35,958 nucleotides of DNA from Chloroflexota bacterium. Lineage in GTDB: Bacteria; Chloroflexota; UBA11872; VXOZ01. Every line of letters starts with the position of its first letter. The first letter of the stretch is position 1. This document shows, one piece after another, positions 7,365 through 22,082 of the stretch. The notes below the pieces were generated by a model. It ran no database searches and had not been told where the DNA came from. It saw only the letters and a program-made list of their open reading frames with translations. The DNA is taken from contig JAPOQA010000037.1 in NCBI GenBank assembly GCA_026710945.1, positions 1 through 35,958 of the forward strand, in the 5' to 3' direction. The translations under genes and the position numbers were made by a program.

Positions 7365-8064
7365 GACAGTGTGCCTCTTCGCAATTAAACTTCGAGACGT
7401 AAAGAGAGAACTCATTCCTATCGTAGACCTTAATCAGCTTTGCGCTCAACCTCTCACACCTGATCATGATGGATCTTTGCCCGATCGGCCGGAACAAAGA
7501 AACGGACATTTATCGTCTCCAAACATCAGTGTATCTTGGAATGAAACGGCTTAGATTCCGCGAACCCTGTTCGACGCTGCGCTCCGCATGACATCTTCTT
7601 CGTAGCACGGGAGCTTTCCCCCGCTCCGCATGACACCTTCTTCGTAGCGCGGGGGCTTGTCCCCCGCTCCGCATGACATCTTCTTCGTAGCGCGGGAGCT
7701 TGTCCCCCGCTCCGCATGACACCTTCTTCGTAGCGCGGGGGCTTGTCCTCCGCTTCCGTGCCCAATTGAGGAAGAATACGAATGGAACACGTCGCTGTTG
7801 TTGCGTTGTCGTACTTGGACGGATAGAGTCAATCTGCGCAGCTATCAGCATTGAGTCCTCAACCGGCAGTCTCGCCCCACCAAGCCAAGTCTCGTACCTG
7901 GAACATGATTAGGTTAAGATAGGGTAACAAGAGAAGCGCGCGGGGATACGAGTGCCCTCGCAGGGGCGGCATGGTGAAATCACCAATTGCTGGTCGTGCC
8001 CTGCGCGCCTGGTGTGAGACACACCCACGCAATGGGCGCTGAGAGTCAGGAGAAAAGAAAGTCT
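7365..8064. other. divergent intergenic region carrying a repeat array
   Basis: This 700-bp spacer lies between the divergently transcribed metallophosphoesterase and DegT-type genes and must hold both promoters. It contains the 43-bp tandem array (7581-7751). Open frames within the array exist in several frames only because the repeat lacks stops. Otherwise I see no gene. Confidence 0.6.
7581..7751. repeat. tandem array, 4 x 43 bp, with GCGGGGGCTTGTCCCCCGC hairpin core
   Basis: Four head-to-tail units start at 7581, 7623, 7666 and 7709 (42, 43, 43 and 43 bp). Each consists of GCTCCGCATGACA(T/C)CTTCTTC followed by GTAGCGCGGGGG-CTTGT-CCCCC. Units 1 and 3 share one variant (ACAT, GGGAG), and units 2 and 4 the other (ACAC, GGGGG), so the array probably grew by duplication of a two-unit block. 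There are no unique spacers, which excludes CRISPR. Each unit can form a strong hairpin. Confidence 0.9.
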
Positions 8065-9294
8065 ATGGAGAAATTAGCGATTCGCGGCGGCACGCCGGTA
8101 TGTACAACAAAGTTCCCTTCCTGGCCTCAGCACGATGAGCGGGAAAAGGAACTCTTGCACCAGGTGTTGGAGAGCAGCCGATGGGGCGGCACGGCCCACG
8201 GCCCGATGGTCATGGAACTCAACGCGCGTTTCTGCGACTACCACGACGCCTTGTTTGGGATACCGCTTACGAGCTGCACCGCGGGCCTGGACATCGGCCT
8301 GCGGGCTTTTGACATCGGACCCGGCGACGAGGTGATCGTGCCGGCCTTCACCTTCATGGCCACGGCTTTTGCGCCCATGTACGTCGGCGCTGACGTGGTG
8401 TTTGCCGACGTAGACCCCAACTCGCTCTGTCTCGATCCGGCGGCAGTGGCCGCTGCTATCACGCCCCGCACCCGCGCCATCATACCCGTGCACTTTGGCG
8501 GCTATCCCGCACAGATTGACGAACTCGGCGCCATTGCAAAGGCTCACGACCTGGCCGTCATCGTCGATTGCGCTCACGCTCACGGCACCGAATGGGCCGG
8601 CAAGAAGGTGGGCGGCTGGGGCGACCTGAATTCCTACAGCTTCAACCAGGCCAAGAACATGACCTGCGGCGAGGGCGGCCTGGCGACCACCGACAACGAA
8701 GCCCTGTGGGAACGCTGCTTCTACACGCTGGCGTGCTTTGGCCGCAAGAACGGCCGCCCCTGGTACGAGCACCACGAGCTCGGCCAGGCCTACCCCATGA
8801 ACGAATTCCAGGCCGCCGTCTGCCTGCCGCAACTCGAGCGGCTCGACGAGCACACGAAGCGGCGCAACCAAAACGCGGCGTATCTCTCCAGCATGCTCAC
8901 GGAGATCCCCGGTCTCACGGTGCAGGAACTAGCGCCGGAGGTCACGCAGCACGGCTACCACATCTACCCCATGCGTCTGGATGCCGAGGAGTTCGGCACC
9001 GACCGTGAGACCTTCCTGCAGGCGGTGCAGGCGGAGGGCATCGGCATATCCAGCGGCTACCCGTGGCCGCTGTATGACAACCCCATGTTCGATAAGTCCG
9101 ACGGCTCGGTGAAAGGTGCCATCGGCGGTTTTCGCACTGAGCCGTGTCCGGTCACCGAGCGGCTTTGCCACGAGGAAGCGGCCTGGATCGGCCAGACCAC
9201 GCTTCTCGCCGACCAGAGCGCCATGGATGACATCGCTGCCGCCATCGCCAAGGTGCAACGAAACGTGGACCAACTGCAGGCAGTATATTCATAG
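8065..9294 (+). CDS. DegT/DnrJ/EryC1/StrS family PLP aminotransferase
   Basis: The protein (409 residues from the ATG at 8065) is a fold-type I PLP enzyme of the DegT/ArnB sugar-aminotransferase family. D168 in VIVDCAHAHG contacts the pyridine nitrogen, and K197 in the SFNQAKNM segment is the Schiff-base lysine. The N-terminal IRGGTPV motif and the GxHxYP-like C-terminal segment also fit. Members transaminate nucleotide-linked keto-sugars or act as dehydratases in deoxysugar and cyclitol pathways. No sugar-nucleotide gene is adjacent, so a catabolic or amine-metabolism role is equally possible. The start at 8065 follows AGGAG at 12 bases; the frame extends upstream to 7987 without family-like sequence. 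Confidence 0.87.
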   Translation: MEKLAIRGGTPVCTTKFPSWPQHDEREKELLHQVLESSRWGGTAHGPMVMELNARFCDYHDALFGIPLTSCTAGLDIGLRAFDIGPGDEVIVPAFTFMATAFAPMYVGADVVFADVDPNSLCLDPAAVAAAITPRTRAIIPVHFGGYPAQIDELGAIAKAHDLAVIVDCAHAHGTEWAGKKVGGWGDLNSYSFNQAKNMTCGEGGLATTDNEALWERCFYTLACFGRKNGRPWYEHHELGQAYPMNEFQAAVCLPQLERLDEHTKRRNQNAAYLSSMLTEIPGLTVQELAPEVTQHGYHIYPMRLDAEEFGTDRETFLQAVQAEGIGISSGYPWPLYDNPMFDKSDGSVKGAIGGFRTEPCPVTERLCHEEAAWIGQTTLLADQSAMDDIAAAIAKVQRNVDQLQAVYS

Positions 9295-9395
9295 TTCTCG
9301 GTGGAGGCGCGTCCCTGAGAACGCAACCTTCTGCGGGGGCCATGCCATCAGCACGGCGGGGCGCGGATAAACAGACTTCTGTTGGATTGAAGACC

Positions 9396-9423
9396 CCCTC
9401 TCCCGCAGGAGACTCGTGCATAA
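9396..9423 (+). repeat. dispersed CCCTCTCCC/AGGAGAC/TGCATAA repeat
   Basis: CCCTCTCCC followed two bases later by AGGAGAC and then TGCATAA. The same order occurs at 13853-13880, and in reverse complement at 14087-14114. These are three copies of an interspersed element about 28 bp long in this window. Confidence 0.6.
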
Positions 9424-9477
9424 ACTTTGCCGAGACGTGAAAGTCTCCTCCTCCGGCGGAGGCCATTGAATCCCTCC

Positions 9478-9500
9478 GTCATTCCGGCGCAAGCCGGAAT
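9478..9500. repeat. GTCATTCCGGCGCAAGCCGGAAT palindrome
   Basis: The arms ATTCCGGC and GCCGGAAT surround a GCAA loop. This is a very common environmental-genome repeat. Variant forms (TCACTCCGGCGAACGCCGGAGT) occur inside the 161-bp duplications at 20165 and 20348. Confidence 0.65.
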
Positions 9501-9857
9501 CCAGGGGGAGTGGGTAGAAGCCGTGAAGCCGTTCTTCATCCCCCCAGCCCGATTCTCGCCCAGCAGGAGGGAGGGGGCTATCTCGCCTGGGCAGAGGTCA
9601 AGCAAGGCGCTCCGGTGGGTGAGCGCTAGCTGCCCGCCCCGCACGCGAAACGGGAGGCGAGGGAGAGTTTCCGTAGTCTTGCCTGTTTCACACAGGCCGC
9701 AGGGTCTCCGCAGGGACGATGAACCGTACGAGCCAGGATCTTTTCGCGCCGGCCCTCTCTCCCCAGGGAGAGCGGAGACCTCTCGCGCTGCGGACGGATG
9801 TTGTGCAAGGGTTTATTGGTGGCAAGAGCGCGGATTTCGTGCGGCAAGGAGGCGCGT

Positions 9858-10748
9858 ATGAGCGGCAAACCCGTATGCTATGTGAACGGGCAACTCGTGC
9901 CGGAAAGCGCCAATGCGGTCTCGCCGCTTGACCGGGGTTTGCTGCTGGGGGACGGGCTATTCGAGACCATGCGCGTTGTGCGCGAGCGCGTGCTGCAGTG
10001 GGATCGGCACTGGGAACGGCTGCGCGGAGGGGCACAAGCGCTTGGACTTGCGTTGCCCTGGACCTCGGATGAACTGCGCGAAGCGGTCGACCGGACGCTG
10101 TACGCCAACAATCTGTGCGAGGCCACCGCCCGCCTCACGGTCACGCGCGGGACCAGTGCCGCGCGGGGTCTCCTGCCGCCAGGCGACACGCAGCCGACAC
10201 TCCTCATTCGCGTAACGCCCTTCGCTCCTTACCCGGCCCACCTCTATCGCAACGGGATGCAAGTGATAGTCAGCCGCAGAGTTCACCGGAATGAGCAGTC
10301 GCCCCTGTCCCGCATCAAGTCGCTGTGCTATCTGGACAATGTTGTCGCCCGCCAAGAAGCGATGGAGAGTGACGCCGATGAGGCCTTGCTGCTCAACACG
10401 CAAGGCAGCGTGGTGTGCGCCACAACCGCGAATGTCTTTTGCGTGCAAGCAGGTCGCTTACACACGCCACCCGTAGCAGAAGGCGCGTTGCCGGGTACGA
10501 TACGCGCTCTGGTGTGTGGAGAACTGGCACAGAAGCTGCAGTGCGGCGTCAAGATCTCGCGGCTAGACGAGGCAGCGTTGTTCTCGGCTGACGAGGTCTT
10601 TCTGACGAACGCCCTCATGGGCATTATGCCGGTATGCGCCATAGATGGACGGCCGCTTGGCGCGGGCGTTCCGGGCCCGGTCACGGGGCGATTTCGCGCC
10701 GCATATGAGGAGTGGTTAACAGCGCAAAGCGGGGCGAAAACAAGGTGA
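9858..10748 (+). CDS. class IV aminotransferase, aminodeoxychorismate lyase-like
   Basis: The 296-residue protein is a fold-type IV PLP enzyme. It has the GDGLFETMR motif (31-39), the PLP lysine K154 in SRIKSLCYLDNV, the EALLLNT strand and a C-terminal FLTNALMGIMPV segment. This set fits 4-amino-4-deoxychorismate lyase (PabC, folate pathway: aminodeoxychorismate to p-aminobenzoate and pyruvate) better than branched-chain or D-amino-acid aminotransferase, although the three are hard to separate by sequence. AAGGAGG five bases before the ATG fixes the start. It ends where the promoter of the downstream tRNA genes begins. No pabA or pabB is in the window. Confidence 0.82.
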   Translation: MSGKPVCYVNGQLVPESANAVSPLDRGLLLGDGLFETMRVVRERVLQWDRHWERLRGGAQALGLALPWTSDELREAVDRTLYANNLCEATARLTVTRGTSAARGLLPPGDTQPTLLIRVTPFAPYPAHLYRNGMQVIVSRRVHRNEQSPLSRIKSLCYLDNVVARQEAMESDADEALLLNTQGSVVCATTANVFCVQAGRLHTPPVAEGALPGTIRALVCGELAQKLQCGVKISRLDEAALFSADEVFLTNALMGIMPVCAIDGRPLGAGVPGPVTGRFRAAYEEWLTAQSGAKTR

Positions 10749-10774
10749 CAAAGAGGGGTATTCACTGCTATACT
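10745..10774 (+). promoter_or_regulatory. promoter of the tRNA-Tyr/tRNA-Asp unit
   Basis: GTGACA (10745-10750), an 18-bp spacer and TATACT (10769-10774) form a good sigma-70-like promoter that overlaps the stop codon of the preceding gene. Transcription would start near 10781, about 36 nt before the mature tRNA-Tyr. Confidence 0.6.
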
Positions 10775-10816
10775 AAATCCAGGTATGAGCGTATACCTGC
10801 TTGCTGCCTGATTTAT

Positions 10817-10900
10817 GGGTCGGTGGGCGAGCGGTCAAAACCACCAGACTGTAAATCTGGCGCCGTAATGGCTACGGAGGTTCGAATCCTCCCCGGCCCA
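10817..10900 (+). tRNA. tRNA-Tyr (anticodon GTA)
   Basis: An 84-nt class II tRNA with a long variable arm. The acceptor stem is GGGTCGG/CCGGCCC with one T-G pair. The anticodon stem CCAGA/TCTGG encloses CTGTAAA, with GTA at positions 34-36. The T-arm is GGAGG-TTCGAAT-CCTCC. The discriminator base is A and the CCA end is not encoded. It is the first gene of a two-tRNA transcription unit. Confidence 0.96.
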
Positions 10901-10934
10901 CCGCGATAGTTCTCCGCGTGATAGAGAACGCTCT

Positions 10935-11009
10935 GGTCCCGTGGTGTAGTTGGCCTAACACACGGCCCTGTCAAGGCTGAGATCGCCGGTTCGAATCCGG
11001 TCGGGACCG
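10935..11009 (+). tRNA. tRNA-Asp (anticodon GTC)
   Basis: A 75-nt cloverleaf. The acceptor stem is GGTCCCG/CGGGACC. The anticodon loop CTGTCAA (GTC at 34-36) sits on a five-pair stem. The T-arm is GCCGG-TTCGAAT-CCGGT. The discriminator is G and CCA is not encoded. It lies 34 nt after tRNA-Tyr and is probably co-transcribed with it. Confidence 0.96.
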
Positions 11010-11330
11010 CCCCCCTTTGAAGCGCTGCCCGGCAGCGGCTTCGGATAATTGGCAGCGCGAGAAGGATTGTGGAATCCACGACCCTTCTTTTACTTGGCGT
11101 AAGCTAGGCATGAGATCGCGGTGTTCTATCTGTGACTGCCGCGCCGCTACCCTCTGTTTCGATCGCGTACTCTCTGGCAGCATGCAGGCTTGGTGTCCTC
11201 TCATGAGCCTGGGGGTGTTGCCCGTGTCCATCCATCTGCGCAAATGAAGAAGCCGCGAGCGCATGCGCTCGCGGCTTCTTGAATCTCACACTCTTCAGCA
11301 AAATCGACGGCAGACTCTCTGTCTGCTCTT
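11010..11330. other. intergenic region between the tRNA pair and the zinc-ribbon gene
   Basis: The two flanking transcripts converge here. The only clear structure is the 34-bp perfect palindrome at 11247-11280. No gene is supported. Confidence 0.55.
11247..11280. terminator. 34-bp perfect palindrome, probable bidirectional terminator
   Basis: AAGAAGCCGCGAGCGCA is followed directly by its exact complement, giving a 17-bp stem with a minimal loop. The palindrome ends in TTCTT on both strands, giving a short T-rich tail. Its position between the plus-strand tRNAs and the minus-strand gene ending at 11331 suits a shared terminator. Confidence 0.7.
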
Positions 11331-11801
11331 CTAGCGTCCTACCGGCTGCGCCGTCGTCTCCGCCGAATCGACCATCTTATAGAGGCGGGCTTCTTCCCGC
11401 TTCTTCTGGGCCCAGCGCTTCGTCGTGATAAGGCGCTTGCGGCGATACTCATCGTCCGTGTGGTACTTGTTACGCACGTAGCACTTGCGGCACCGCAACG
11501 CACGCTGCACAACTGTGCCGCAATCGATGCAGAACTTCGGTTCCTTGGGCTTCTTCGGTTGCTTGCTCAAGCGGATGCGGCGCAACTCGGCGACACGCTC
11601 CTTATTCTCCCGCGCCCACCTGCGATTCTTCTCCAGAATCTTGTCCTTGTTGCGTTGATAGTAGCGCTTGAAATACGTAGAGAGCCGCTCGGCGCGGCCG
11701 CAACGCGCACACAGGCCGGCGCGCTTGGATTTACCGTCACGCTGACCGGTAATATCGGTCTCGCAGCGCGCACAGGTAAGAACTTGAACTGTTGCCTCCA
11801 T
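11331..11801 (-). CDS. double zinc-ribbon, strongly basic hypothetical protein
   Basis: From the ATG at 11801 (GGAGG five bases upstream) the product has 156 residues. It has two four-cysteine knuckles, C10-x2-C13...C31-x2-C34 and C91-x2-C94...C104-x2-C107. They are separated by about 55 mostly Lys/Arg/Glu residues that should form a long helix (YFKRYYQRNKDKILEKNRRW onward), and a second basic tail follows. Repeats of the form YYxRNKDKIxExNRRW are typical of the segments next to HNH and other DNA-binding modules in phages and mobile genes. No HNH catalytic motif is present. A nucleic-acid-binding role is likely; the partner is unknown. It is monocistronic. Confidence 0.72.
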   Translation of the reverse strand: MEATVQVLTCARCETDITGQRDGKSKRAGLCARCGRAERLSTYFKRYYQRNKDKILEKNRRWARENKERVAELRRIRLSKQPKKPKEPKFCIDCGTVVQRALRCRKCYVRNKYHTDDEYRRKRLITTKRWAQKKREEARLYKMVDSAETTAQPVGR

Positions 11802-12804
11802 CGGAACCTCCAGCAGAAACTGAACACGAATACCTAAAAGAGAACCAAACGCATGCTGCACTCGGACAAGCTGCGCAAGCGCACCAACTCCTCTGAAAAC
11901 TTCTGCCTTGCCCCTAAACTGACTCGATTAGCTAGTTTGTGTGCAATTTCACATGCAGGTCAAGGATATCTAATATTGGCGGCTGCTGTCAAGCTTCTGC
12001 AAATGCGATTGATGCGCGCCATAACAGGGAAAAGTCACTTTTTGCACGAATTCACCCCCGCAAAGTTTCCTAAGAGATTGATAAGAATTCGCTTTTCGGC
12101 AGTATCTCAACGTGGTGGGCAGCAATGCTATGCAGCACAACGATACTCAGCGGTCGCTGAATCTGTGCATACTGCACAACATACGGGGTTGACAGGTCTG
12201 GGGTCTCTCTTGACTTTACATGCAAAGCCGTAGAGTTTGCAGCATACCCCCTCTTTCGTACACCAAACATATCGAGATATTGACAAGGTCTACGTCTATC
12301 GATTGGCCTGTTACTATTGTCACAAGGCTGGCCGCAAACTGCTTGATAGTTGGAGATCAACAGGGTAACTGTACCGCAATATCAGTGTCGCCAGAGGGCC
12401 AAGGTGCCCCCATGTGAGCCCTACATCCTTCAAAATTCAGTTGATGCGACTGAGCAGGACATACCTGTGGCGATTCTTGTAGGAAGTTGGCGCAGCTTGT
12501 AGATCCAGTAACTCGGCCGGAACTGCGAAATTGTGTCTCAAGCCTCGCCGCTTTGGTCCAAGAGGTGTTCGGCAACGCCGAATTGCGTGCATCCTGCCAC
12601 AAAGGGATGGGTGTGCAAGGTACGGTGGTGGGGCGAAACGGCTGACCGCTGCAGGGCGTCAAGCTGGCTGCGGTGGGCTGATTCGTCTATCACTTCGGTC
12701 CGAAACGCTATTCGTCAATTGAAATTGCTACGGGCGCAGACGGAAGCTTTCGCTTACTGTTACCGTAAGGGTACTACCCGACAGAGAAATATCCGCGGAG
12801 CTAA
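11802..12804. other. 1-kb region without a supported gene
   Basis: Open frames such as 11853-12233 and 12533-12988 on plus and 12070-12360 and 12357-12662 on minus show neither recognisable protein sequence nor ribosome-binding sites. The stretch 11890-12350 is clearly more AT-rich than its surroundings, and the whole may be decayed foreign DNA. No repeat family of this window occurs in it. Confidence 0.45.
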
Positions 12805-13755
12805 ATGCAGATCGCTGCCATGGAACAATCGAACGCAGATAGCGCACAAGCTTGGCCGCCCCTGCCGCCTAACGGCTGGAGTTTGGCCGCGTTTGCGCTG
12901 GGCGCGTTTTGGTACCTGCGGGAAGGCATCACCGGCAAGGGGCGCGTTCTGCTCGTGCCACAGAGCGTGGTGGTCATACTCGCGCTGATTAACGCAGTGT
13001 TTATCTTCCGCCAGTCGCCGTTCGAGACGGCAGCGCTGCCTGCGGCAGTTGCGGCGCTGGTGCTCTGGTCGCTCGTCGGCTCCTATTGCGCCGCATCGTT
13101 TCGCGGCGACGCCTACCGCCGCTGGTGCGAGGCGAACGGGCAAACGCCGCTGGTGCCGGCCCAGTGGCAGTGGGGGGCCTTCTTGCTTACCGGCGGCTGG
13201 TACGTGGCCCACGGCATGCGGGTGAAGGGTCTGTGGCTTTGGCTGGCTTTCTTTACGTCGGTGGGCAGCATTGTCGGCATTCCGCTTGCGTTCGCCCTCA
13301 TGTGCTACTGCGGCGCGAACTTTTGCGCGGAACGGTACCTGGAAAAACCGCCGGCAGAAATCGGCCCCACGCCCCAAGAGCGCTGGATTCACCAGGACTT
13401 ACTGAAAGCGCTGACGGCGGTTGCCAAGACTCCCCAGGCATCGCTGCGCGCCTCGCTGCTGGAATCTGCGGTGCGTGGCCTGCGCAGGCAGGGATATGCC
13501 GTGCGTCTGGATGATGAGCAAGCTGAAGGAGCGTCTGCCCTGACGTTGGAAAGAGGCTTGCGCTTCCTGGCTGTGCGCGTCGTACCGGAATCGCCGGTGT
13601 CCGCGGATGAGGTCGAGATGCTTGTGACGGCCTTGGAAGAAGATAAATACAAAGTGGGTGTGCTGGTGGTAAACGGGCCGCTCACCAACGCGGCCCAGGC
13701 GGCAGCAACGCGAGCGCACGTGCGGATACTGGATGTGCAGGGCGTGGAAGCGTAG
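12805..13755 (+). CDS. membrane protein with C-terminal inactive Mrr-like domain
   Basis: The 316-residue protein starts at an ATG four bases after CGGAG. The N-terminal half contains two related units, NGWSLAAFALGAFWYLREG (23-41) and WQWGAFLLTGGWYVAHGMR (121-139). Each is followed by hydrophobic helices (about 48-68 with 77-98, and 143-168). They resemble DUF2628-type small membrane modules. Residues 216-316 have the layout of an Mrr-type restriction-endonuclease fold (LRRQGYAVRL, then RGLRFLAVRVV, then KVGVLVVNGPLTNAAQAAA and RILDV). However, the catalytic GxDxGID aspartate and the QCK/QxK lysine are replaced (EGASALTL, LAVRVV). It is probably a non-catalytic, membrane-tethered nucleic-acid-binding or sensing domain. 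No partner gene is linked. Confidence 0.72.
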   Translation: MQIAAMEQSNADSAQAWPPLPPNGWSLAAFALGAFWYLREGITGKGRVLLVPQSVVVILALINAVFIFRQSPFETAALPAAVAALVLWSLVGSYCAASFRGDAYRRWCEANGQTPLVPAQWQWGAFLLTGGWYVAHGMRVKGLWLWLAFFTSVGSIVGIPLAFALMCYCGANFCAERYLEKPPAEIGPTPQERWIHQDLLKALTAVAKTPQASLRASLLESAVRGLRRQGYAVRLDDEQAEGASALTLERGLRFLAVRVVPESPVSADEVEMLVTALEEDKYKVGVLVVNGPLTNAAQAAATRAHVRILDVQGVEA

Positions 13756-13852
13756 CACCATGGACTGCCTGTGCAGGTCGGAATTTGCAGTTCCGCGCCT
13801 CGGTCTCCTGGAAGAGGGGACAAGGGTGAAAGGGAACGCTCCTCCTCCGGTT

Positions 13853-13880
13853 CCCTCTCCCTGAGGAGACCTTTGCATAA
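13853..13880 (+). repeat. dispersed CCCTCTCCC/AGGAGAC/TGCATAA repeat, copy 2
   Basis: Same module order as 9396-9423. An inverted, slightly diverged third copy lies at 14087-14114. Confidence 0.6.
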
Positions 13881-13903
13881 CCCCACTTTCAAGCAGGGGC
13901 ACT

Positions 13904-14287
13904 CCCTCTCCTGGGGGAGAGGGTTGGGGTGAGGGGGGTCTTTTTGCTACAATGGCCCTTTACGTTGAGTAGTGTCAAGACGTATCAAGGCAGAATCGGT
14001 GTGCAAATGGAGAGATTTCAGGAGTTTCCCCCTCACCCTAGCCCTCTCCCGTCGAGGGAGAGGGAACACTCTCGCTTCCGCTTAGGTATCGCAAAGGTCT
14101 CCTGAGGGAAAGGGCTAGGGTGAGGGGGATTCTTTTCGAAAGGGAGTACACTGCCAAGAGGCGGCTGCGGCTTTCGGAGACCAGCCACACGCGCGACAAG
14201 AAGGGGCAATGGTTAGGCAACCACATTGAATTCACCGACACAGACTGACCGGTTCCCTCTCCCGGGGGAGAGGGTTAGGGTGAGGGG
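13904..14287. repeat. cluster of four CCCTCTCCC / GGGAGAGGG / TAGGGTGAGGGG hairpins
   Basis: Copies are at 13904-13937, 14028-14064 (inverted), 14104-14128 (partial) and 14253-14287. Each full unit has a CCCTCTCC arm pairing with GGAGAGGG, plus an asymmetric tail TTAGGGTGAGGGG that gives orientation. Alternating orientation allows long-range pairing between copies. This resembles REP/BIME elements, but no transposase of the RAYT type is in the window. Confidence 0.75.
14161..14248 (+). repeat. 88-bp direct repeat, copy 1
   Basis: Aligned without gaps to 14320-14407. Shared blocks include GGAGACCAGCCACA, GCGCGACAA and TTCA(T/C)CGA, ending in GACTGA. Diverged copies of equal length suggest an old duplication. 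A hairpin repeat separates the two. Confidence 0.6.
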
Positions 14288-14319
14288 TCTTCAAGACTCA
14301 GAGCTTGAATTGCTTGGTG

Positions 14320-14407
14320 GCAGCCACGGCTCCCGGAGACCAGCCACAGGCGCGACAATTTAGGGCAAAACTAGAGCTACGACATCGGATTCATCGATAG
14401 TGACTGA
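14320..14407 (+). repeat. 88-bp direct repeat, copy 2
   Basis: Second copy of the 14161-14248 unit. It ends 12 bp before the GTG start of the methyltransferase gene, so it forms that gene's leader and may hold its promoter. Confidence 0.6.
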
Positions 14408-14419
14408 GGGGTAAGGCTT

Positions 14420-15238
14420 GTGAAGTCGGCACGCTCGGCAATTCTCATAGCGCTTATCGGCGTCAGCATCCTGTTCCTACGCCGGCTGCGGCAGTGGGCG
14501 GGCAATCCGCCTACGCAGCGAACCTCCCACAAGGAAGCCATCGAGCCGCCGGAACTCGTCGCGCGGTACAGCCGCTTCATGGCGCTGCTCCCCATGCGGG
14601 TAGTGCGCGGCTACCTGGCGCGCTACGCTACCGCTGGGTCCACGCAGTGGCGCATCCTGGACGTGGGGTGCGGGCCGGGGTGGTTTCCCCTTGAGCTGGC
14701 GGCGTGCGCGCCTCAGGCTACCGTGACTGGCATTGACCTCTCACTGCCCATGCTCACAACGGCAACCGCCCACGCCGCGACCGACCGTCACGAACAGGCC
14801 GTGCATTTCGCGCAGGCGCGCGGCGAGGTGCTGCCGTTTGCGGACGATACGTTCGATCTTGTCGTGAGCACGCTGGCTCTGCACCACGTGCAGGACCCGG
14901 TAGCCGCGCTCGCGGAGCTACGGCGCGTGGCGCAACCATCGGGCCGGATCCTCGTGGCCGACACCCGCCGCGACATTCACCCCTGGCTGTGGACGCTGCT
15001 CAAAGCAAGCCAGGTGGGCATAGACGGGCTGGCGCTCTGCGAAAACGGCGAGCCCTCAGCGTCCATCGGCGCTTCCTACACCGCTTCCGAGGCACACCGC
15101 CTCGCCCTCCAAGCCGGTTGGGAGCGCGCCCGCGTGCAAGCCGGCCCCGGCTGGATCCTGCTCGAACGCCTGCCCACACAAGCGACGACCTACCCCGTGC
15201 CCCCAACCCCACGCCGCAAGCGAAACGGTAGGCCGTAG
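14420..15238 (+). CDS. class I SAM-dependent methyltransferase with N-terminal anchor
   Basis: The 272-residue protein begins with a basic residue and a hydrophobic stretch (residues 7-20) followed by Arg-rich sequence. This is likely a signal anchor, unusual for this family. Motif I is ILDVGCGPGW (79-88), motif II the acidic ID about 22 residues later (VTGIDLS), and post-motifs VLPFADDTFDLVVSTLALHHV and GRILVADTR complete the Methyltransf_11-type Rossmann fold. The acceptor substrate is unknown; ubiquinone-type and small-molecule methyltransferases look alike here. It starts at GTG preceded by AAGG. It ends about 200 bp before hisH with no shared function apparent. Confidence 0.82.
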   Translation: MKSARSAILIALIGVSILFLRRLRQWAGNPPTQRTSHKEAIEPPELVARYSRFMALLPMRVVRGYLARYATAGSTQWRILDVGCGPGWFPLELAACAPQATVTGIDLSLPMLTTATAHAATDRHEQAVHFAQARGEVLPFADDTFDLVVSTLALHHVQDPVAALAELRRVAQPSGRILVADTRRDIHPWLWTLLKASQVGIDGLALCENGEPSASIGASYTASEAHRLALQAGWERARVQAGPGWILLERLPTQATTYPVPPTPRRKRNGRP

Positions 15239-15434
15239 GAATCTAAGAACGCCAATTGCTGGGAGGAGAATTTCTTACCAGTTGTGGCGCAGGGCCTTCG
15301 CGAAACCAGACTCACATGGACGTTGCAAGCGTAGTTTGAATCCGAACAAAGCGCGGCGTAAAATTGTTGCCTACCTTGCTGAGGCGATATCATACAGAGG
15401 TGACCCGTACATTTATGAAAGAAACTACCCTGCC

Positions 15435-16064
15435 ATGATTGCGATAATTGACTACGGCGCCGGGAATTTGCGGAGTGTCAGCCGGGCGGTGGCGTTGCAT
15501 ACGCCGGACTTTGTGGTGACGCAGGACCCGGCGGAAGTAGAACGCGCCGCGGCGGTGATCTTGCCCGGTGTGGGCGCGGCGGGGGATACCATTCGCGGGC
15601 TGGAGCGGCACGGCATGATTGAGGTGGTGCAGGCCACGATCGCTTCCGGCAAGCCGTATTTCGGCATTTGCATGGGGATGCAGGTCTTGCTCACGGCCAG
15701 TGAAGAGGACGGCGGCACGCCCTGCCTCGATCTCTATCCCGGCCTCGTGCGGCGCTTCCCCAAGGGGCTCACCGTGCCGCACATGGGCTGGAACCAGGTG
15801 CGGCAGACACAGGAGCACCCGATGTTCGCCGGCATTCCGGACGAAGCGTATTTCTACTTTGTGCACTCGTACTACACCGACCCGGAGGACGCCGCGCTGA
15901 CCGCCGGCGCCACCGACTATGGCGTCGCCTTCCCCAGCGTGATAGCGCAGGAGAATGTGTTTGCGACGCAGTTCCACCCGGAGAAGAGCGCGGGTATGGG
16001 ATTGCGGCTCTATGAGAATTTCGTGGCGTGGGCGGTGGGCGCGCACAGCGCAAGAACTGCATAA
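15435..16064 (+). CDS. hisH: imidazole glycerol phosphate synthase, glutaminase subunit
   Basis: HisH hydrolyses glutamine and channels ammonia to HisF in histidine biosynthesis. The 209-residue protein starts with IAIIDYGAGNLRSV. It has the oxyanion PGVGA strand (44-48), the nucleophile C79 in YFGICMGMQ, and H181 and E183 in TQFHPEKSG-like sequence, completing the triad. The open frame extends upstream to 15282, but family members start at this ATG (15435); no strong ribosome-binding site precedes it. The partner hisF is not in the window. hisA follows after about 700 bp of repeats rather than directly as in most his operons. Confidence 0.94.
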   Translation: MIAIIDYGAGNLRSVSRAVALHTPDFVVTQDPAEVERAAAVILPGVGAAGDTIRGLERHGMIEVVQATIASGKPYFGICMGMQVLLTASEEDGGTPCLDLYPGLVRRFPKGLTVPHMGWNQVRQTQEHPMFAGIPDEAYFYFVHSYYTDPEDAALTAGATDYGVAFPSVIAQENVFATQFHPEKSAGMGLRLYENFVAWAVGAHSARTA

Positions 16065-16076
16065 ATCTCAGGAAGA

Positions 16077-16172
16077 GCGCTTCGACAGGCTCAGCGCGAA
16101 CGGGGTAAGAACGCTGCGGCAAGCACAACGGAAACGGCGGCAAGAGCGTTTCGACAGGCTCAGCGCGAACGG
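16077..16172 (+). repeat. two CTTCGACAGGCTCAGCGCGAACGG repeats
   Basis: Copies at 16077-16103 and 16144-16172 are followed by GGTAAGAACGC-type sequence that recurs several times to about 16226 in progressively shorter form, giving a small degenerate tandem. Confidence 0.75.
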
Positions 16173-16352
16173 GGGTAAGAACGCAGCGCGAACAGGGGTA
16201 AGAAGGCAACGCGAACGGGGGTAAGAGCGCAACGCGAACGGCGGCGAGAACGCTGCGATAGGCTAAGTACAGGCTTTGCCGAAGGGTCGCAGGATGAACG
16301 AATGCCGCGAGCGCAAGGCATGTTTCTTCCAAAGGGGCGCTTGATTTTTGAC

Positions 16353-16643
16353 GCCAAGAGGCGGGGGACAAGCCCCCGCGCTACGAGAGCCTGCATTGGG
16401 TTTGGGCAACGCTGGAGAATGAACAGTCAATTCGTCTAGGTCAGTGCATTCGCCAAGACCTTGCGCAACCCAAATGGTGTGCGCCAAGAGGCGGGGGACA
16501 AGCCCCCGCGCAACAAGAATCTGAATTGGGTTTGGGTAACACTGGAGATTCAGAATTCAGCTTGTCTGGGTAACTGCATATTCCCAGCGTTGCCGCAACC
16601 CTAGCTGGGCGCCAAGAGGCGGGGGACAAGCCCCCGCGCTACA
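16353..16643. repeat. tandem repeat, about 2.3 x 130 bp, with inverted hairpin core
   Basis: Units start at 16353, 16483 and 16611 (periods 130 and 128). Each opens with GCCAAGAGGCGGGGGACAAG and completes the hairpin core in the reverse orientation to the arrays at 7.6 and 18.3 kb. Between cores, copies 1 and 2 share TTGGGTTTGGG(C/T)AAC and similar blocks at roughly 70 percent by eye. The cores are almost identical while the linkers have diverged, suggesting either purifying selection or gene conversion of the hairpin. Confidence 0.85.
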
Positions 16644-16759
16644 CTGATCGGATGATTGTCGAGCCTATTGTGGTAAGTGCGCAAGAACGAAATCTCAGTG
16701 GTTGAAGTGTCAAAACGCCGCTGCCGTTGAGGCGACGCGGAGGATGTGCGCAGTACGCC

Positions 16760-17485
16760 ATGCAAGTAATTCCCGCGATAGACATCAAAGACGGCGCGGT
16801 GGTGCGCCTCTTCAAAGGTGACTTTGACCAGAGCACCGTCTTCTCCCACGATCCGGTGGAGACCGCCCGCGGCTGGGAGGAACAGGGCGCGGCGTTGCTC
16901 CACGTGGTGGACCTGGACGGCACCGAGCGCGGCAAGAGCCGGAACCACCCGGTTGTCGCGGCGATTGCCGAGGCGCTGACCATTCCCGTGCAGATGGGCG
17001 GCGGCTTGCGCGACCTCGCTGCTATCGAGCAGGCAGTCGCGGCAGGCGTGGCGCGGGTCGTGTTGGGCACGGTGGCGTTGGAGCAGCCTGAGTTGGTCGC
17101 CGAGGCGTGCGCGCGCTATCCCGGCCGGGTGGTCGTCGCGTTAGATGCCCGCAACGGCAAGGTGATGACCCACGGCTGGCAGCATGAGAGCGGCGTGGAC
17201 ATGTTCGTTCTGGCGCACCAGATGGTGGCGAGCGGCGTGAGCCGGTTTCTCTACACCGACGTGGAGCGCGACGGCACGCTCTCCCAGCCGAATTTTGAGG
17301 CAACGGGGGCGCTGGCTCGAGCCGTCAGCGTGCCGGTAATCGCCTCCGGCGGTGTCGCCAGTCTCGACCACCTCACGCGGCTGACGACGCTCGGCGTCGA
17401 AGGGGCCATCGTCGGCGTATCCCTCTATCGTGGCGCGTTCACGCTGCCGGAAGCGCTGGCGACCGTGCGGCGCGCGGCACAGTAA
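16760..17485 (+). CDS. hisA: ProFAR isomerase, histidine biosynthesis
   Basis: HisA isomerises ProFAR to PRFAR, the substrate of HisHF. The 241-residue TIM barrel begins VIPAIDIKDG with catalytic D8, and has the general acid/base D129 in VVALDARNGKV. The phosphate-binding segments MGGGLRD (79-85) and ASGGVASLDHL, and the TDVERDGT loop, are also present. I chose the ATG at 16760 because family members start at this strand; a TTG start at 16727 would add 11 unlikely residues. GGAGG lies too far upstream (16738) to be a convincing ribosome-binding site. PriA-type dual specificity cannot be excluded. Confidence 0.93.
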   Translation: MQVIPAIDIKDGAVVRLFKGDFDQSTVFSHDPVETARGWEEQGAALLHVVDLDGTERGKSRNHPVVAAIAEALTIPVQMGGGLRDLAAIEQAVAAGVARVVLGTVALEQPELVAEACARYPGRVVVALDARNGKVMTHGWQHESGVDMFVLAHQMVASGVSRFLYTDVERDGTLSQPNFEATGALARAVSVPVIASGGVASLDHLTRLTTLGVEGAIVGVSLYRGAFTLPEALATVRRAAQ

Positions 17486-17537
17486 CTCCAATTCCAACAT
17501 CGCTTCGGGTTTACTTCTGTTTGGGCTGAATTGCAGC

Positions 17538-17981
17538 TTAGTCGCGGCGGCACATGTGATGGAGCGGAGATTCATAGTACGTCGCCGCGCTAATGCTCGC
17601 CAGCACTGTGCCGTCGCTCTGCTCCACAAACCAGATCACGTACGGGATGTGGAGGTCGCCTGCGAATGCTACCTCCCACACCGGACTCTGCGTCCGCAGG
17701 GAGTAGGCGGAGGTGAGACGCGCCTCAAACAAGCCTTGTGAGAAGTCCTGCTCCAAGCGACCATGCGCCTCCCGACAGGAGATAATCTCAGAAAGATGCG
17801 TGCGCACCGCCGCGAGAGCAGCCTCTTTGCTACTTATAGGAGCATCGGCCCCGCCACGCAGGGCAGGTTGCGGCGCTGTGTCAGCATCTGAAAATTCCCC
17901 AGCACCGCCGCACGCAGCAAGCAGCAAGACCATCAACGCAAGACCGAGCGCGCAGACGTAGTTTTGTGCCGCTACATGCAC
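17538..17981 (-). CDS. small lipoprotein of unknown function
   Basis: Beginning at the GTG at 17981, preceded by AGGGGAG at 8 bases, the product has 147 residues. A short hydrophobic signal ends in the lipobox LAAC with C24, followed by GG and a low-complexity linker, so it is predicted to be a lipid-anchored surface or periplasmic protein. The mature part (about 60-147) is a small alpha+beta region with VWEVAFAGDLHIPYVIWFVEQSDGTV, reminiscent of PepSY-like or DUF-type strands but not assignable. The longer open frame to 18089 gives no signal peptide and is rejected. It is convergent with hisA. Confidence 0.68.
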   Translation of the reverse strand: MHVAAQNYVCALGLALMVLLLAACGGAGEFSDADTAPQPALRGGADAPISSKEAALAAVRTHLSEIISCREAHGRLEQDFSQGLFEARLTSAYSLRTQSPVWEVAFAGDLHIPYVIWFVEQSDGTVLASISAATYYESPLHHMCRRD

Positions 17982-18267
17982 AGGATTTCTCCCCTCTTTT
18001 TCCTTCCTTAACTCATTCCAATGCCATTTCGCGACTTGGGCGCGAACGATTAGTTGCAAAGCGCAGCGCTCTGCGCAGAGCGCTGACAAGTCTAGCTACG
18101 CGTTCAACTCCACCGGCCCGCTCAACCGATAGCAACGCGAACCGCGTAAGACGTGAAGTTGGATTCCTGCTTTGCGCGGAAATGACGGGCTGGGGACGCC
18201 GGTTACAAACCTGCGCGACCAAGGCAGTTCGTTGGCCTCCCTAGCGTGAAGGTGAGGGCTGCCCTTT

Positions 18268-18594
18268 GTAGCGCGGGGCCTTGTCCCCCGCCAGAGCAAC
18301 TGCTCTGTGTAGCGCGGGGGCTTGTCCCCCGCCGGAGCAACTGCTCTTTGTAGCGCGGGGGCTTGTCCCCCGCCAGAGCAACTGCACTTCGTAGCGCGGG
18401 GGCTTGTCCTCCGCCAGAGCAACTGCTCTTTGTAGCGCGGGGGCTTGTCCCCCGCCAGAGCAACTGCACTTCGTAGCGCGGGGGCTTGTCCTCCGCCAGA
18501 GCAACTGCTCTTTGTAGCGCGGGGGCTTGTCCCCTGCCAGAGCACTGCACTTTGTAGCGCGGGGGCTTGTCCCCCGCCAGAGCACGCGAAACTG
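18268..18594. repeat. tandem array, 8 x 41 bp, with GCGGGGGCTTGTCCCCCGC hairpin core
   Basis: Units begin with GTAGCG at 18268, 18309, 18350, 18391, 18432, 18473, 18514 and 18554 (six periods of 41 and a last of 40). Each holds the hairpin core followed by CAGAGCAACTGC(T/A)CTT. Two linker types (CTGCTCTTT and CTGCACTTC) alternate in the central part, again pointing to growth by two-unit blocks. The core matches the 7.6-kb array but the linker is entirely different, so the two arrays were amplified independently. Confidence 0.92.
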
Positions 18595-18757
18595 CGACCA
18601 CATCAGCAGCACAAGGCGTGGCTCTAACACTTCCACTGATAGAAACGGGTGCGCAAGGGCTTGACCCTACAACAGGCGCAGAGCCTGCCCCGTACTCGAT
18701 ACGGGGTTGCAAACCTGTCCTGAGCACTTCGGCAGGGTCAGCACAGGCTCTGCCGAA

Positions 18758-18826
18758 GGGCCCGTCCTGAGCCTGTCGAAGGGCCCGTCCTGAGCCTGTC
18801 GAAGGGCCCGTCCTGAGCCTGTCGAA
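18758..18826. repeat. tandem array, 3 x 23 bp, of the CTGAGCCTGTCGAA family
   Basis: Three exact units of GGGCCCGTCC-TGAGCCTGTC-GAA start at 18758, 18781 and 18804, with a partial fourth at 18827. A diverged inverted relative (GAGCACTTCGGCAGGGTCAG) precedes them at 18723. Confidence 0.9.
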
Positions 18827-18938
18827 GGGCCTGCGCTACCGGAATTGTAAGGTAATGAGAGCTCCGTATTCCTTGCCAAGAAAGCTAATGCGACAACATT
18901 GGGGCTCAGTCCCCGCTCCTCAACACTCCCTTGCAGTC

Positions 18939-18968
18939 TTGCCAAGATTGCTTTGGATGCACTATTTT
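18939..18968 (+). promoter_or_regulatory. promoter of PhyH paralogue 1
   Basis: TTGCCA (18939-18944), an 18-bp spacer and TATTTT (18963-18968), followed by GGTACAA. The same arrangement with near-identical sequence stands upstream of the second paralogue (20596-20625), and the distance from the end of the -10 to the ATG is 102 bp here versus 101 bp there. Conservation in otherwise diverged leaders supports function. Confidence 0.6.
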
Positions 18969-19069
18969 GGTACAAACTTGGGAGAAGAGGGTAAAGTAGC
19001 CCCGGAAGTAGCAGCGGGCGCCAGCGCACGTGCAAGCGGCTTGCACGGGAAGTCCAGGAGCAGCACACC

Positions 19070-20038
19070 ATGGCCGGTCTCACCGAAGCACAGCTCGATC
19101 AATTTGCTGAACAAGGGTACGTGGTCGCGGAAAACGTGCTCGATCCGGCGGAAGACCTGGCGCCGGTGATGGCGGAATACGGTGAGGTGTTGGACGGCAT
19201 CGCCCGTGACCTGCACGCCGAAGGTGTCATTTCCTCCACCTATGCCGACCTGCCGTTCGACCAGCGGCTCATTCACGTCTGCGACGAGAGCCGCCAGCTC
19301 TTCACCCAGCCGTTCGATATCTCCCTGCCGCAGAGCGCCGAGCGCGCCGACGCGCCCATGCACACCGGCCCGGCCGTCTTTAGCCTGCTTATCAACCGCC
19401 GCCTGCTCGATTGCGTCGAGAGCATCATGGGGCCGGAAATCCTCAACAATCCGATACAGCACGTGCGCATGAAGTTACCGCGCCACGCCGTGCATACGGA
19501 GGGATCGAGCGGCTTGGCCGGCCCCACGCCCTGGCACCAGGACAACGGCGTGGTGGTCACAGAGGCGGATGAAACGGAAATGCTCACGGTGTGGCTGCCC
19601 TTGAATGATGCCACCATTGAGAATAGCTGCCTGAACGTCGTGCCGTACTCGTATCGGGACGGCCTCGCCGTGCACTGCCCGGGCGCCGGCGGCCTAAGCA
19701 TACCGGAAGAGCAGATGGATGTGGCGAAAGCCGTGCCGCTGCCCATGCAGGCCGGCAGCGTGCTCTTCATGCACCGCCGTACCATGCACTGTTCGTACGA
19801 TAACAAGACAGAGGACGAGGTGCGCTGGAGCTTCGACCTGCGCTACCACCCGAGCGGTCAACCCAGCGGCCGCCCGGTCTTCCCTGACTTTGTAGCCCGC
19901 AGCCGCGCCAACCCCGAGACGGAACTCCGTTCCGCTGCCGGGTGGGCGCAGCTCTGGGCGGATGCGCGGGTTCGTCTGGCCGCTTCCGCTAAACAGAAGT
20001 TCAACCGCTGGTCCGCCGACCACCCCGCCTGCGCCTAA
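19070..20038 (+). CDS. phytanoyl-CoA dioxygenase family protein, paralogue 1
   Basis: The 322-residue Fe(II)/2-oxoglutarate oxygenase has the HxD motif WHQD (H156, D158), the distal histidine H240 in RRTMHCSYDNKT and the 2-oxoglutarate arginine R252 in DEVRWSFDLRY. The C-terminal FxARSRANPxxEL segment is typical of a PhyH subfamily common in marine and sponge-associated bacteria. CAGGAG lies 9 bases before the ATG. About 80 percent of the first 145 residues match paralogue 2. Substrate unknown. Its own promoter and the 687-bp gap to paralogue 2 indicate separate transcription. Confidence 0.9.
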   Translation: MAGLTEAQLDQFAEQGYVVAENVLDPAEDLAPVMAEYGEVLDGIARDLHAEGVISSTYADLPFDQRLIHVCDESRQLFTQPFDISLPQSAERADAPMHTGPAVFSLLINRRLLDCVESIMGPEILNNPIQHVRMKLPRHAVHTEGSSGLAGPTPWHQDNGVVVTEADETEMLTVWLPLNDATIENSCLNVVPYSYRDGLAVHCPGAGGLSIPEEQMDVAKAVPLPMQAGSVLFMHRRTMHCSYDNKTEDEVRWSFDLRYHPSGQPSGRPVFPDFVARSRANPETELRSAAGWAQLWADARVRLAASAKQKFNRWSADHPACA

Positions 20039-20164
20039 CAGGCAACATCGCCTTACTGGCAGGATCTGCTCTGCATGGCGGCAGGCGAAGGCACTTTTTC
20101 CCCGTAGCGCGGGAGCTTGTCCCACAAAGAGGTCTCCAGGTTTCGTGACATGCTCTTTTTCCCC

Positions 20165-20325
20165 GTAGCGCGGGGGCTTGTCCCCCGCCAATTTGCCGCT
20201 AGTTTAACGTGGTCAGGCCTTCCATCCGTCACTCCGGCGAACGCCGGAGTCCAGGGCGCGTACAAAGTGCAAAAATGGATTCCTGCCCGTTTTAAGCCCG
20301 GGGCAGGCTTTTCGCGGGAGTGATG
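20165..20325 (+). repeat. 161-bp composite repeat, copy A
   Basis: A mosaic of three palindromic modules in fixed order: the GCGGGGGCTTGTCCCCCGC core, TCACTCCGGCGAACGCCGGAGT, and ATGGATTCCTGC...GCGGGA(G/A)TGA. Copy B is 20348-20508, also 161 bp, starting 183 bp downstream; most differences are in the unpaired linkers. Confidence 0.85.
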
Positions 20326-20347
20326 TATTGAGTTGATATCGCCTTAT

Positions 20348-20508
20348 GTAGCGCGGGGGCTTGTCCCCCGCCAATTCGCCGCTGGTTAAACGAAACTAGG
20401 CGTTCGATCCGTCACTCCGGCGAACGCCGGAGTCCAGGGCGCGTGCAAAGAACGAAGATGGATTCCTGCGCGTTTCAAGCCCGGGTCAGGCTTTTCGCGG
20501 GAATGACG
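20348..20508 (+). repeat. 161-bp composite repeat, copy B
   Basis: Same three modules in the same order and spacing as copy A at 20165-20325. The pair indicates segmental duplication of an already assembled repeat cluster between the two PhyH paralogues. Confidence 0.85.
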
Positions 20509-20595
20509 AGCCCGTTCTTCCGACCCTCTCCTGCCGCAATAAATCCTGTCTTTGTGTGGGAGCCTGCCTGCCACTCTCAATAATCGCTTGAAGGC

Positions 20596-20625
20596 TTGCC
20601 TAGAGTGCTCTGGATGTATTATTTT
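20596..20625 (+). promoter_or_regulatory. promoter of PhyH paralogue 2
   Basis: TTGCCT (20596-20601), 18 bp, TATTTT (20620-20625), then GGTACAA. It matches the element before paralogue 1, including the spacer block GTGCTCTGGATG versus TTGCTTTGGATG. Confidence 0.6.
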
Positions 20626-20725
20626 GGTACAAGACAGATACATGGGCGTAAAGAACCTCGGCATTGGCATCTATCGCAATCGGATGTGCATACGTTCCGC
20701 ATTGGACAATTAGGAGCAGCAAAAA

Positions 20726-21697
20726 ATGGCCGGCTTGACGCAAGCGCAACTCAATCAACTTACTGAACAAGGCTACGTTGTCGTAGAAAACGTCCTCGAT
20801 CCGGAAGAAGACCTGGCGCCGGTGATGGCGGAATATGCCGACGTGCTGGACGGTATCGCCCGCAATCTCTACGCTGAGGGCGTTATTTCCTCTGTGTATG
20901 CCGACCTGCCGTTCGACCAGCGGCTAATTCAAGTCTGCGACGAGAGCGGCCAGATTTTTGCCCAGCCTTTCGACATTTCACTGCCGCAGAAAGCCATAGG
21001 GGCTGACGCGCCGATGCACACCGGCCCGGCCGTCTTCAATCTGCTCGTAAACTCACGTTTGCTCGATTGCGCGGAGAGCGTCGTGGGGCCTGAAATCCTC
21101 TCCAACCCCGTGCAGCACGTGCGCATGAAGCTGCCGCGTCACGTCGTCCATGTGGAGAACCCGAGCAATCTTTCCGTGGCCGTGCCCTGGCACCAGGACA
21201 ACGGCGTGGTGGTAGAAGAGGCGGACGAAACCGAGATGCTGACAGTGTGGCTACCCCTGAACGATGCCACCATCGAGAATAGCTGCATGTACGCCGTGCC
21301 TTACTCGCACCGGGAAGAAGAGCTCGCCGTACACTGCCCGGGCGTCGGCGGCGTCTGGATACCGGAAACACTTGTGGACGTGGCGAACGCCGTACCGTTG
21401 CCCATGCAGGCGGGAAGCATTCTGCTCATGCACAGCAAGACCATGCACTGTTCGTACGACAACAAGACCCAGGACCAGGTGCGCTGGAGTTTCGACCTGC
21501 GCTATCAGCCGGTCGGCCAGCCTACCGGGCGACCGGTCTTCCCCGAGTTCGTGGCCCGCAGCCGCGCCAATCCTGAATCGGAGCTGCGCGATGCCGCAAC
21601 GTGGACCCAAATGTGGGAAGACGCCCGACCTAAACTGGCCGCCTCCTCTACCGAGAACTTCAACCGCTGGTCCGCTGACCATCCCGTGTGCGCGTAA
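20726..21697 (+). CDS. phytanoyl-CoA dioxygenase family protein, paralogue 2
   Basis: A 323-residue oxygenase paralogous to the gene at 19070. The iron ligands (WHQDNG, and His in KTMHCSYDNKT) and the arginine in QVRWSFDLRY are all kept, so both copies should be active. Differences cluster between residues 140-152 and 193-215 (SHREEELAVHCPGVGGVWI against SYRDGLAVHCPGAGGLSI), next to the active-site opening, which suggests altered substrate preference. AGGAGC precedes the ATG. A GCGGGGG hairpin lies 67 bp after the stop, as it does after paralogue 1. Confidence 0.9.
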   Translation: MAGLTQAQLNQLTEQGYVVVENVLDPEEDLAPVMAEYADVLDGIARNLYAEGVISSVYADLPFDQRLIQVCDESGQIFAQPFDISLPQKAIGADAPMHTGPAVFNLLVNSRLLDCAESVVGPEILSNPVQHVRMKLPRHVVHVENPSNLSVAVPWHQDNGVVVEEADETEMLTVWLPLNDATIENSCMYAVPYSHREEELAVHCPGVGGVWIPETLVDVANAVPLPMQAGSILLMHSKTMHCSYDNKTQDQVRWSFDLRYQPVGQPTGRPVFPEFVARSRANPESELRDAATWTQMWEDARPKLAASSTENFNRWSADHPVCA

Positions 21698-22082
21698 CGG
21701 GCCAGGCGATTTGATAGACTCGCAGTCGGCCCAAGTGGCTACAGCCTAGGCACTCTCTCTACCCGTAGCGCGGGGGCTTGTCCCCCGCTCCTGGCGCAAA
21801 GCTTGTTGTGCAACATGATGGATGCCCACCCCATATCAAGTATGGAGCAGGCATCGCGCGGATATCACCATGGCCTTGCCCAGGCCACACCAGCGCACGA
21901 AAATGGAGAAAGCGCCGGGCGGCAGCACGAAGGCGGTAGCCATTGGCTCCATGGCAGCGCGTCACCCTCCAAACCGCATGAATCGTCTATTTTAGTAATA
22001 ATTGCGGACTTGGGCCCAAGCGTTTACCGGAGTTTAAGGATTCTCAACTACGGAAAGTGCATTCTTTGAGAAGGCTAGCCGT
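21698..22082. other. intergenic region with one hairpin-core repeat
   Basis: A single GTAGCGCGGGGGCTTGTCCCCCGC copy at 21765-21788 lies downstream of PhyH paralogue 2. Open frames at 21803-22069 (plus) and 21759-21965 (minus) show no recognisable sequence. No gene is supported. Confidence 0.55.
21765..21788 (+). repeat. single GCGGGGGCTTGTCCCCCGC hairpin
   Basis: Plus-orientation copy of the core, 67 bp after the stop codon of PhyH paralogue 2. It could act as a 3'-end stabilising hairpin. Confidence 0.75.

Follow-up and report, generated by a model that had tools for sequence, protein, structure and literature searches.

The stretch analysed here, called the window throughout, is contig JAPOQA010000037.1 of a Chloroflexota bacterium (assembly GCA_026710945.1), 35,958 nucleotides long. 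It is contig C37 of a draft genome that comprises 70 contigs and 3.52 Mb. A short hairpin recurs in it, singly and in tandem arrays, and its repeat unit is very probably a repetitive extragenic palindrome (REP) of the GTAG type. Tandem Repeats Finder (TRF) reports 4.1 copies of a 43-bp period at 7580-7754, 8.0 of 41 bp at 18259-18584, 2.3 of 130 bp at 16352-16643 and 1.9 of 183 bp at 20165-20506. The copies and the DNA adjoining them are as follows.

7581..7753, plus strand: array 1, four 43-bp units, each a REP with a 19-bp linker (TRF); cores intact or near-intact at 7644, 7687 and 7730, that of the first unit (about 7602-7624) decayed
16353..16643, minus strand: three REPs (16361, 16491, 16619) in 130-bp units, upstream of the gene at 16760
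18268..18577, plus strand: array 2, eight REPs in 41-bp units, the last spacing 40
18578..18914, no strand assigned: body of a dispersed element adjoining array 2, in two parts (18578-18735 and 18830-18914) split by a 23-bp tandem array
20104..20127, plus strand: degenerate REP with 4 mismatches
20165..20506, plus strand: REPs 20165-20188 and 20348-20371 in a 183-bp tandem duplication
21765..21788, plus strand: single exact REP, downstream of the second phytanoyl-CoA dioxygenase (PhyH) family gene
34766..34789, minus strand: single exact REP

Both pure arrays lie between divergent genes, array 1 between 6645-7364 (minus strand) and 8065-9294 (plus strand), array 2 between a minus-strand gene at 17538 and 19070-20038 (plus strand). 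An earlier reading of the window, the original prediction, had described most of these copies. Of its four 43-bp units the first has a decayed core, so that three of the four cores score as REPs; its 161-bp duplications are indeed duplicated, the copies being 183 bp apart with about 159 bp in common; and its list is now longer by the degenerate copy at 20104 and the minus-strand copy at 34766-34789.

The repeat unit and its dispersal

The repeated core is real. With up to 3 mismatches GCGGGGGCTTGTCCCCCGC matches the window 18 times, compared with a mean of 0.07 and a maximum of 1 in shuffled sequences, and TRF finds the arrays as the original prediction described them. The hairpin proposed there as the unit is part of something longer, because GTAG precedes the stem and the conserved unit, GTAG-CGCGGGGG-CTTGT-CCCCCGC, comprises 24 nt: an unpaired GTAG tag followed by a 7-bp hairpin. 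In full this unit reads GTAGCGCGGGGGCTTGTCCCCCGC, and 19 copies with up to 6 mismatches are found in the window. Folded as single-stranded DNA it forms a 7-bp stem with a 5-nt loop and leaves GTAGC unpaired at the 5' end (-9.3 kcal/mol, z -3.8), as GTAG REPs do, which are palindromes of 20-40 bp with an unpaired GTAG at one end. The asymmetric loop, CTTGT, gives each copy a polarity, as had been proposed. An Rfam scan of the window returned two tRNAs alone above threshold.

The genome-wide search that the original prediction suggested yields a high copy number. The 19-nt core, with up to 2 mismatches, occurs at 127 + 114 places, and the 24-mer, again with 2 mismatches allowed, in 226 copies; the reversed patterns give 0 in either case. 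The 24-mer is present in all six genomes of the genus, the five congeners holding 68-192 copies each (192 in G004, 68-100 in the other four), and outside the genus 4-15 copies are found in 5 genomes out of 55 from the class or phylum.

We examined the surroundings of the copies in two samples, in which genes were called by a simple codon-usage script. The first consists of the window and 20 stretches selected for REPs (418 kb; copies with up to 5 mismatches), and the second, blind sample of 20 stretches at round coordinates (400 kb). Across 46 loci of the first sample (of 47, one at a stretch end being left out) conservation is confined to the 24 nt, the flanks lying near background apart from one pyrimidine on each side. 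Given that 24 nt are all that the loci have in common, they look as expected of an element that has inserted at sites unrelated to one another. None of the 99 copies in the first sample lies in a gene, 79 being intergenic and 20 beside stretch ends, and likewise all 20 copies of the blind sample, at 15 loci, are intergenic; about 70% of positions are coding in each sample (70% and ~70%). High copy number and intergenic location are both features of GTAG REPs.

We find it very probable that the hairpin is a 24-nt GTAG REP, a remnant of transposable DNA linked to a REP-associated tyrosine transposase (RAYT), and that its arrays are later local duplications. Systems of this type are already known, and GTAG repeats of Chloroflexi are in print (Thermomicrobium roseum GTAG-23, PMC3733652). 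In the available parts of the literature on REPINs (paired REPs, see below) and RAYTs, on REPs with insertion sequences and on miniature inverted-repeat transposable elements (MITEs) with REPs, no description was found of this REP family, of the MITE reported below or of this genus. A puzzling hairpin array is thereby assigned to a known system and tied to a transposase in the little-studied Chloroflexota.

Might the copies be kept instead as hairpins in RNA, protecting mRNA or terminating transcription, as proposed for other REPs? Gaps between genes of the same direction hold 29 of the 40 placed loci of the first sample and 12 of the 15 blind loci (the remainder being 2 divergent and 1 convergent), yet such gaps are the commonest type anyway. 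Moreover orientation relative to same-direction genes is balanced, with 14 same and 15 opposite in the first sample and 8 and 4 in the blind one, and the hairpin lacks a subsequent T-run. We therefore consider this explanation unlikely for the family, although individual copies may have an effect at the RNA level. An intrinsic terminator was also considered as a candidate and rejected, since base frequencies 3' of the unit reveal no T-run.

The transposase gene and its relatives

A search for a RAYT or other Y1 transposase gene, proposed in the original prediction, was successful. The genome holds four PF01797 genes, and one of them, at C59:99912-100316, has four REPs on each side, inverted relative to each other with GTAG outward. 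The Y1 transposase domain scores above the PF01797 cut-off, the gene passes the NCBIfam REP-associated tyrosine transposase model NF047646 (88.7 and 83.7 bits, cut-off 80), and the best PDB match of the orthologue from G004 is 4er8, TnpArep (E 2.8e-6). In G004 numbering, H75-A-H77 (the HUH motif) and the catalytic Y134 are invariant in 4 aligned relatives, as are W113, Q114 and R123. The latter have the same spacing as W94, Q95 and R104 of the E. coli protein, which the available text of PMC6006769 links to GTAG recognition, and judging from this spacing they are probably equivalent to them. Inverted REPs also flank its orthologues in G001, G003 and G004, as well as a related gene in G052. Another of the genome's contigs, C10, carries at 877-1437 and 1163-1490 of stretch L034 a further gene resembling a RAYT, whose palindrome, GTAGGGGCGGTTCGCGAACCGCCCCTAC, is not that of the REP; this palindrome has 10 two-strand matches in the 418-kb sample, about 5 places as it is self-complementary, none of them in the window.

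Relatives of the transposase were searched in 400 genomes of the phylum (E <= 1e-12), of which 29 hold them. Beside some of these relatives stand variants of the REP. That of G091 reads GTAG-GGCGGGGG-CTTGT-CCCCCGCC, and that of G052, GTAGC-GCGGGGC-CTTGC-GCCCCGC, has a compensated stem change. In the first 40 of 80 RAYT loci named in genome records, hairpins tagged GTAG or GTGG flank the gene on both sides at 23 loci and on at least one side at 33, while three scrambled tags used as control give both-side hairpins in 7 of 120 tests. In order to avoid selecting for pairing, all 80 loci were then queried with GTAG-N8-CTYGY-N8, a pattern that imposes none. It gave 121 hits, 58 of them with 8 of 8 pairs and 22 with 7 of 8, whereas the scrambled control gave 5 hits with at most 4 pairs. 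Combinations of stem and loop with at least 6 pairs number 46 and come from 25 loci. The CTYGY loop is part of this query, and the case for its constancy comes from the excess over control and from the 40-locus test, in which the loop was left free and other loops occur besides CTTGT-like ones. These data show that, from one RAYT relative to another, substitutions in the stem come in pairs, with tag and loop recurring. The RAYT would accordingly be expected to recognize a single-stranded hairpin by means of its GTAG tag and CTTGT loop.

Origin of the arrays

The original prediction held that the arrays formed independently around an existing core, and suggested comparing array sizes; across the congeners the comparison gives 4, 3 and 8 copies in this genome against 0-1, 1-2 and 0 at the corresponding sites. 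Upstream of the gene at 16760, where this genome has three copies, a REP of the same orientation is present in all five congeners: one in G003, one in G004, two in G005, and one each in G001 and G002, split by a MITE. At the site of array 1, compared in G001-G004 (no data for G005), the four units of this genome correspond to one REP in G004, aligned to the first unit, and to none in G001-G003. Array 2, with eight REPs, has no REP at its orthologous sites in G001-G004, and none is found in the ~500 bp readable upstream in G005. At 20165-20506 the single REP of G004 can be aligned to both halves of the duplication. Paralogous sites agree, as the dispersed element adjoining array 2 recurs on this genome's C23, on C77 of G004 and, in degenerate form, on this genome's C14, with one REP in place of the window's eight. 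Finally, among 51 head-to-tail neighbour pairs the shared sequence amounts to at least 0.9 of the period in 32, to 0.6-0.9 in 6 and to less in 13, by an ungapped extension, which fails to count duplications that contain indels, for instance the window's 130-bp units.

Together, the copy-number differences at orthologous and paralogous sites and the pairs sharing their period indicate that the arrays are secondary and independent. At the level of sequence comparison they are shown to be lineage-specific tandem duplications of single REPs with their local flank, separate at each site. Single REPs would in the past have been placed at new sites by the RAYT, and their later duplication together with local flank presumably proceeded by slippage or unequal recombination as for the other repeats of this genome. 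Clusters of REPs in Stenotrophomonas were likewise concluded to be secondary and independent (PMC2817692, in its available text).

Alternatively, the arrays could have been built by repeated RAYT insertion beside existing REPs. The 13 pairs that share less than 0.6 of their spacing fit such a course, but the 32 that share at least 0.9 of the period share the linkers as well, and non-REP sequences are tandemly arrayed in the same genome; we regard repeated insertion as the main source of the arrays as improbable. Only one TRF array in the blind stretches includes a REP, and many of the intergenic arrays there consist of other sequences; tandem amplification is thus general in this genome. That hairpins are specially prone to amplification was considered, as 17 of 34 intergenic TRF arrays in the first sample contain a REP; this sample was selected for REPs, the blind stretches contain only the one such array, and the idea was dropped.

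A further proposal, that the arrays serve as regulatory hairpins for divergent promoters and persist because their structured DNA or RNA modulates both neighbouring genes, arose from the position of the two pure arrays between divergent genes. This position is true of the window, and all placed copies lie outside genes, but it is not typical genome-wide. Of 21 multi-copy loci in the first sample 5 are at stretch ends, and the other 16 comprise 3 divergent, 12 same-direction and 1 convergent; with 2 of 15 among the blind loci, the divergent share does not exceed that of intergenic positions (~20%). Orientation is unbiased, and four congeners lack array 2 and three lack array 1. Neither sample indicates that divergent promoters are preferred or that the orientation is fixed, a regulatory role is not needed to explain the arrays, and we hold this proposal to be very unlikely. 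Random placement with respect to genes and lack of orientation bias had been named as the outcome favouring neutral amplification: orientation is indeed unbiased and gene arrangement is that of the intergenic background, but the copies avoid coding DNA. As for a CRISPR-like array, the repeats are short, regularly spaced and partly palindromic, but near-identical linkers within an array (array 2) in place of unique spacers, dispersal at more than 200 places and a flanking RAYT gene make this explanation negligible.

Solitary repeats and an element inserted into them

Several observations weigh against the reading of the hairpin as a RAYT-linked REP with secondary arrays. The RAYT frame is interrupted in this genome (TAG after ~20 codons), in G001 (TGA), in G003 (a one-base gap) and in G052 (a frame shift) and is open in G004 alone, and neither G002 nor the incomplete G005 yielded an orthologue. 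Some neighbours, among the 13 pairs noted above, may be separate insertions. Two comparisons between G003 and G005 gave no clean 24-nt empty site; they showed shared REPs, and insertion of longer repeated DNA, pointing to the MITE family. Inverted pairs, which REP systems usually contain, hardly occur. As to the broken gene, the available text of PMC3686654 argues that the decay of REPs following RAYT loss is no more than gradual, which fits many copies beside it. Copy number and an intact RAYT (226 copies here, 192 in G004, 68-100 in the others) suggest a link at most, with six genomes and this genome's own RAYT broken. In the RAYT genes of G003 (L068) and G052 (L069), whose genomes belong to different classes, a single base is missing at roughly the same codon, close to an AAGAA stretch, which may reflect coincidence, an error or a programmed frame shift.

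What was the unit that moved? Adjacent REPs, no more than 250 bp apart, are direct in 51 of 52 pairs of the first sample and in 4 of 5 of the blind one, and 33 single REPs have no inverted partner within 200 bp above control. These REPs thus lack the inverted pairs that define REP doublets forming hairpins (REPINs) and bacterial interspersed mosaic elements (BIMEs). Either single REPs moved, or paired forms moved and left singles behind; the latter is less likely, because no inverted relics stand beside the singles. We tentatively propose, as a possibility rather less probable than its opposite, that in this lineage the mobile unit is the solitary 24-nt REP rather than an inverted pair, and that a broad group of RAYTs, from many phyla, reads GTAG and a CTTGT-type loop, the stem being free to vary if paired. 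If true, this would contradict the view that REP pairing is needed for spread. The rarity of inverted pairs together with a recurring loop on changing, paired stems offers a testable case of RAYT recognition and movement.

The closest known systems are compared here through the available text of each source. The GTAG super-family including T. roseum GTAG-23 (PMC3733652) is alike in its unpaired GTAG, GC-rich stem, high copy number, intergenic location and RAYT link, and its large clusters are described as tandem reiterations of units with flanking DNA; neighbours in the present genome are head-to-tail, GTAG-23 being compared by description and not by consensus sequence. REPtrons of Stenotrophomonas, Pseudomonas and enterobacteria (PMC2817692) likewise place a RAYT between two inverted REPs, and their clusters have unrelated linkers and an inferred repeated independent origin, but are built on inverted REPs (BIMEs). 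In Pseudomonas fluorescens (PMC3116915) RAYT-linked dispersed REPs include some tandem arrays with flank; there the inverted pair is proposed as the replicative unit and singlets as defunct remnants, whereas here singles predominate without inverted partner. Insertion sequences that target REPs (PMC1525189) provide the precedent of a second mobile element inserting specifically into REPs, while here it is a MITE family of 170-280 bp that duplicates the hairpin centre, its autonomous partner not found among the matches listed.

The members of this family are mostly ~170-280 bp long with 16-bp terminal inverted repeats of the AATGYTGTCGCATTAA type, and are seated inside REPs, at the following loci.

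Window 18830-18914; L079, L104, L140, L156, L161, L163, L164, L166: MITE family loci
Window ~18885-18900: MITE terminal repeat in the dispersed element, a relic beside array 2

Both ends are present in 23 copies; 17 of these have a REP centre (up to 3 mismatches) on both sides and 20 on at least one side, the same test being passed by 73 of 100,000 random 13-mers. The search pattern included four flanking C, which introduces a slight bias. In 9 of the 23 there is a direct repeat of 12-13 bp, with no more than 1 mismatch. Upstream of the 16760 gene the REPs of G001 and G002 are split by MITEs with different bodies and those of the other four genomes are unsplit, and removing the G001 MITE and one repeat copy in silico makes the REP alignable to G003 and G004. 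By these alignments the MITE is seen to insert into the REP hairpin, the centre of which it duplicates. For an autonomous partner, inverted terminal repeats separated by 1.2-1.7 kb were sought, and no such pair stood out among the matches listed. The target, GGG-N5-CCC, is reminiscent of IS4-family elements of the IS231 type.

Other repeats adjoin the arrays. A 43-bp sequence at 7552-7594, next to array 1, occurs at many places in the genus with ~90% identity, and the array-1 linker resembles its end. The 23-bp tandem arrays at 16161-16257 and 18750-18831 consist of a TTCGACAGGCTCAG-like repeat unrelated to the REP, which is arrayed elsewhere in the genome too. The genes at 19070-20038 and 20726-21697 are tandem members of the PhyH family and are paired in all five congeners.

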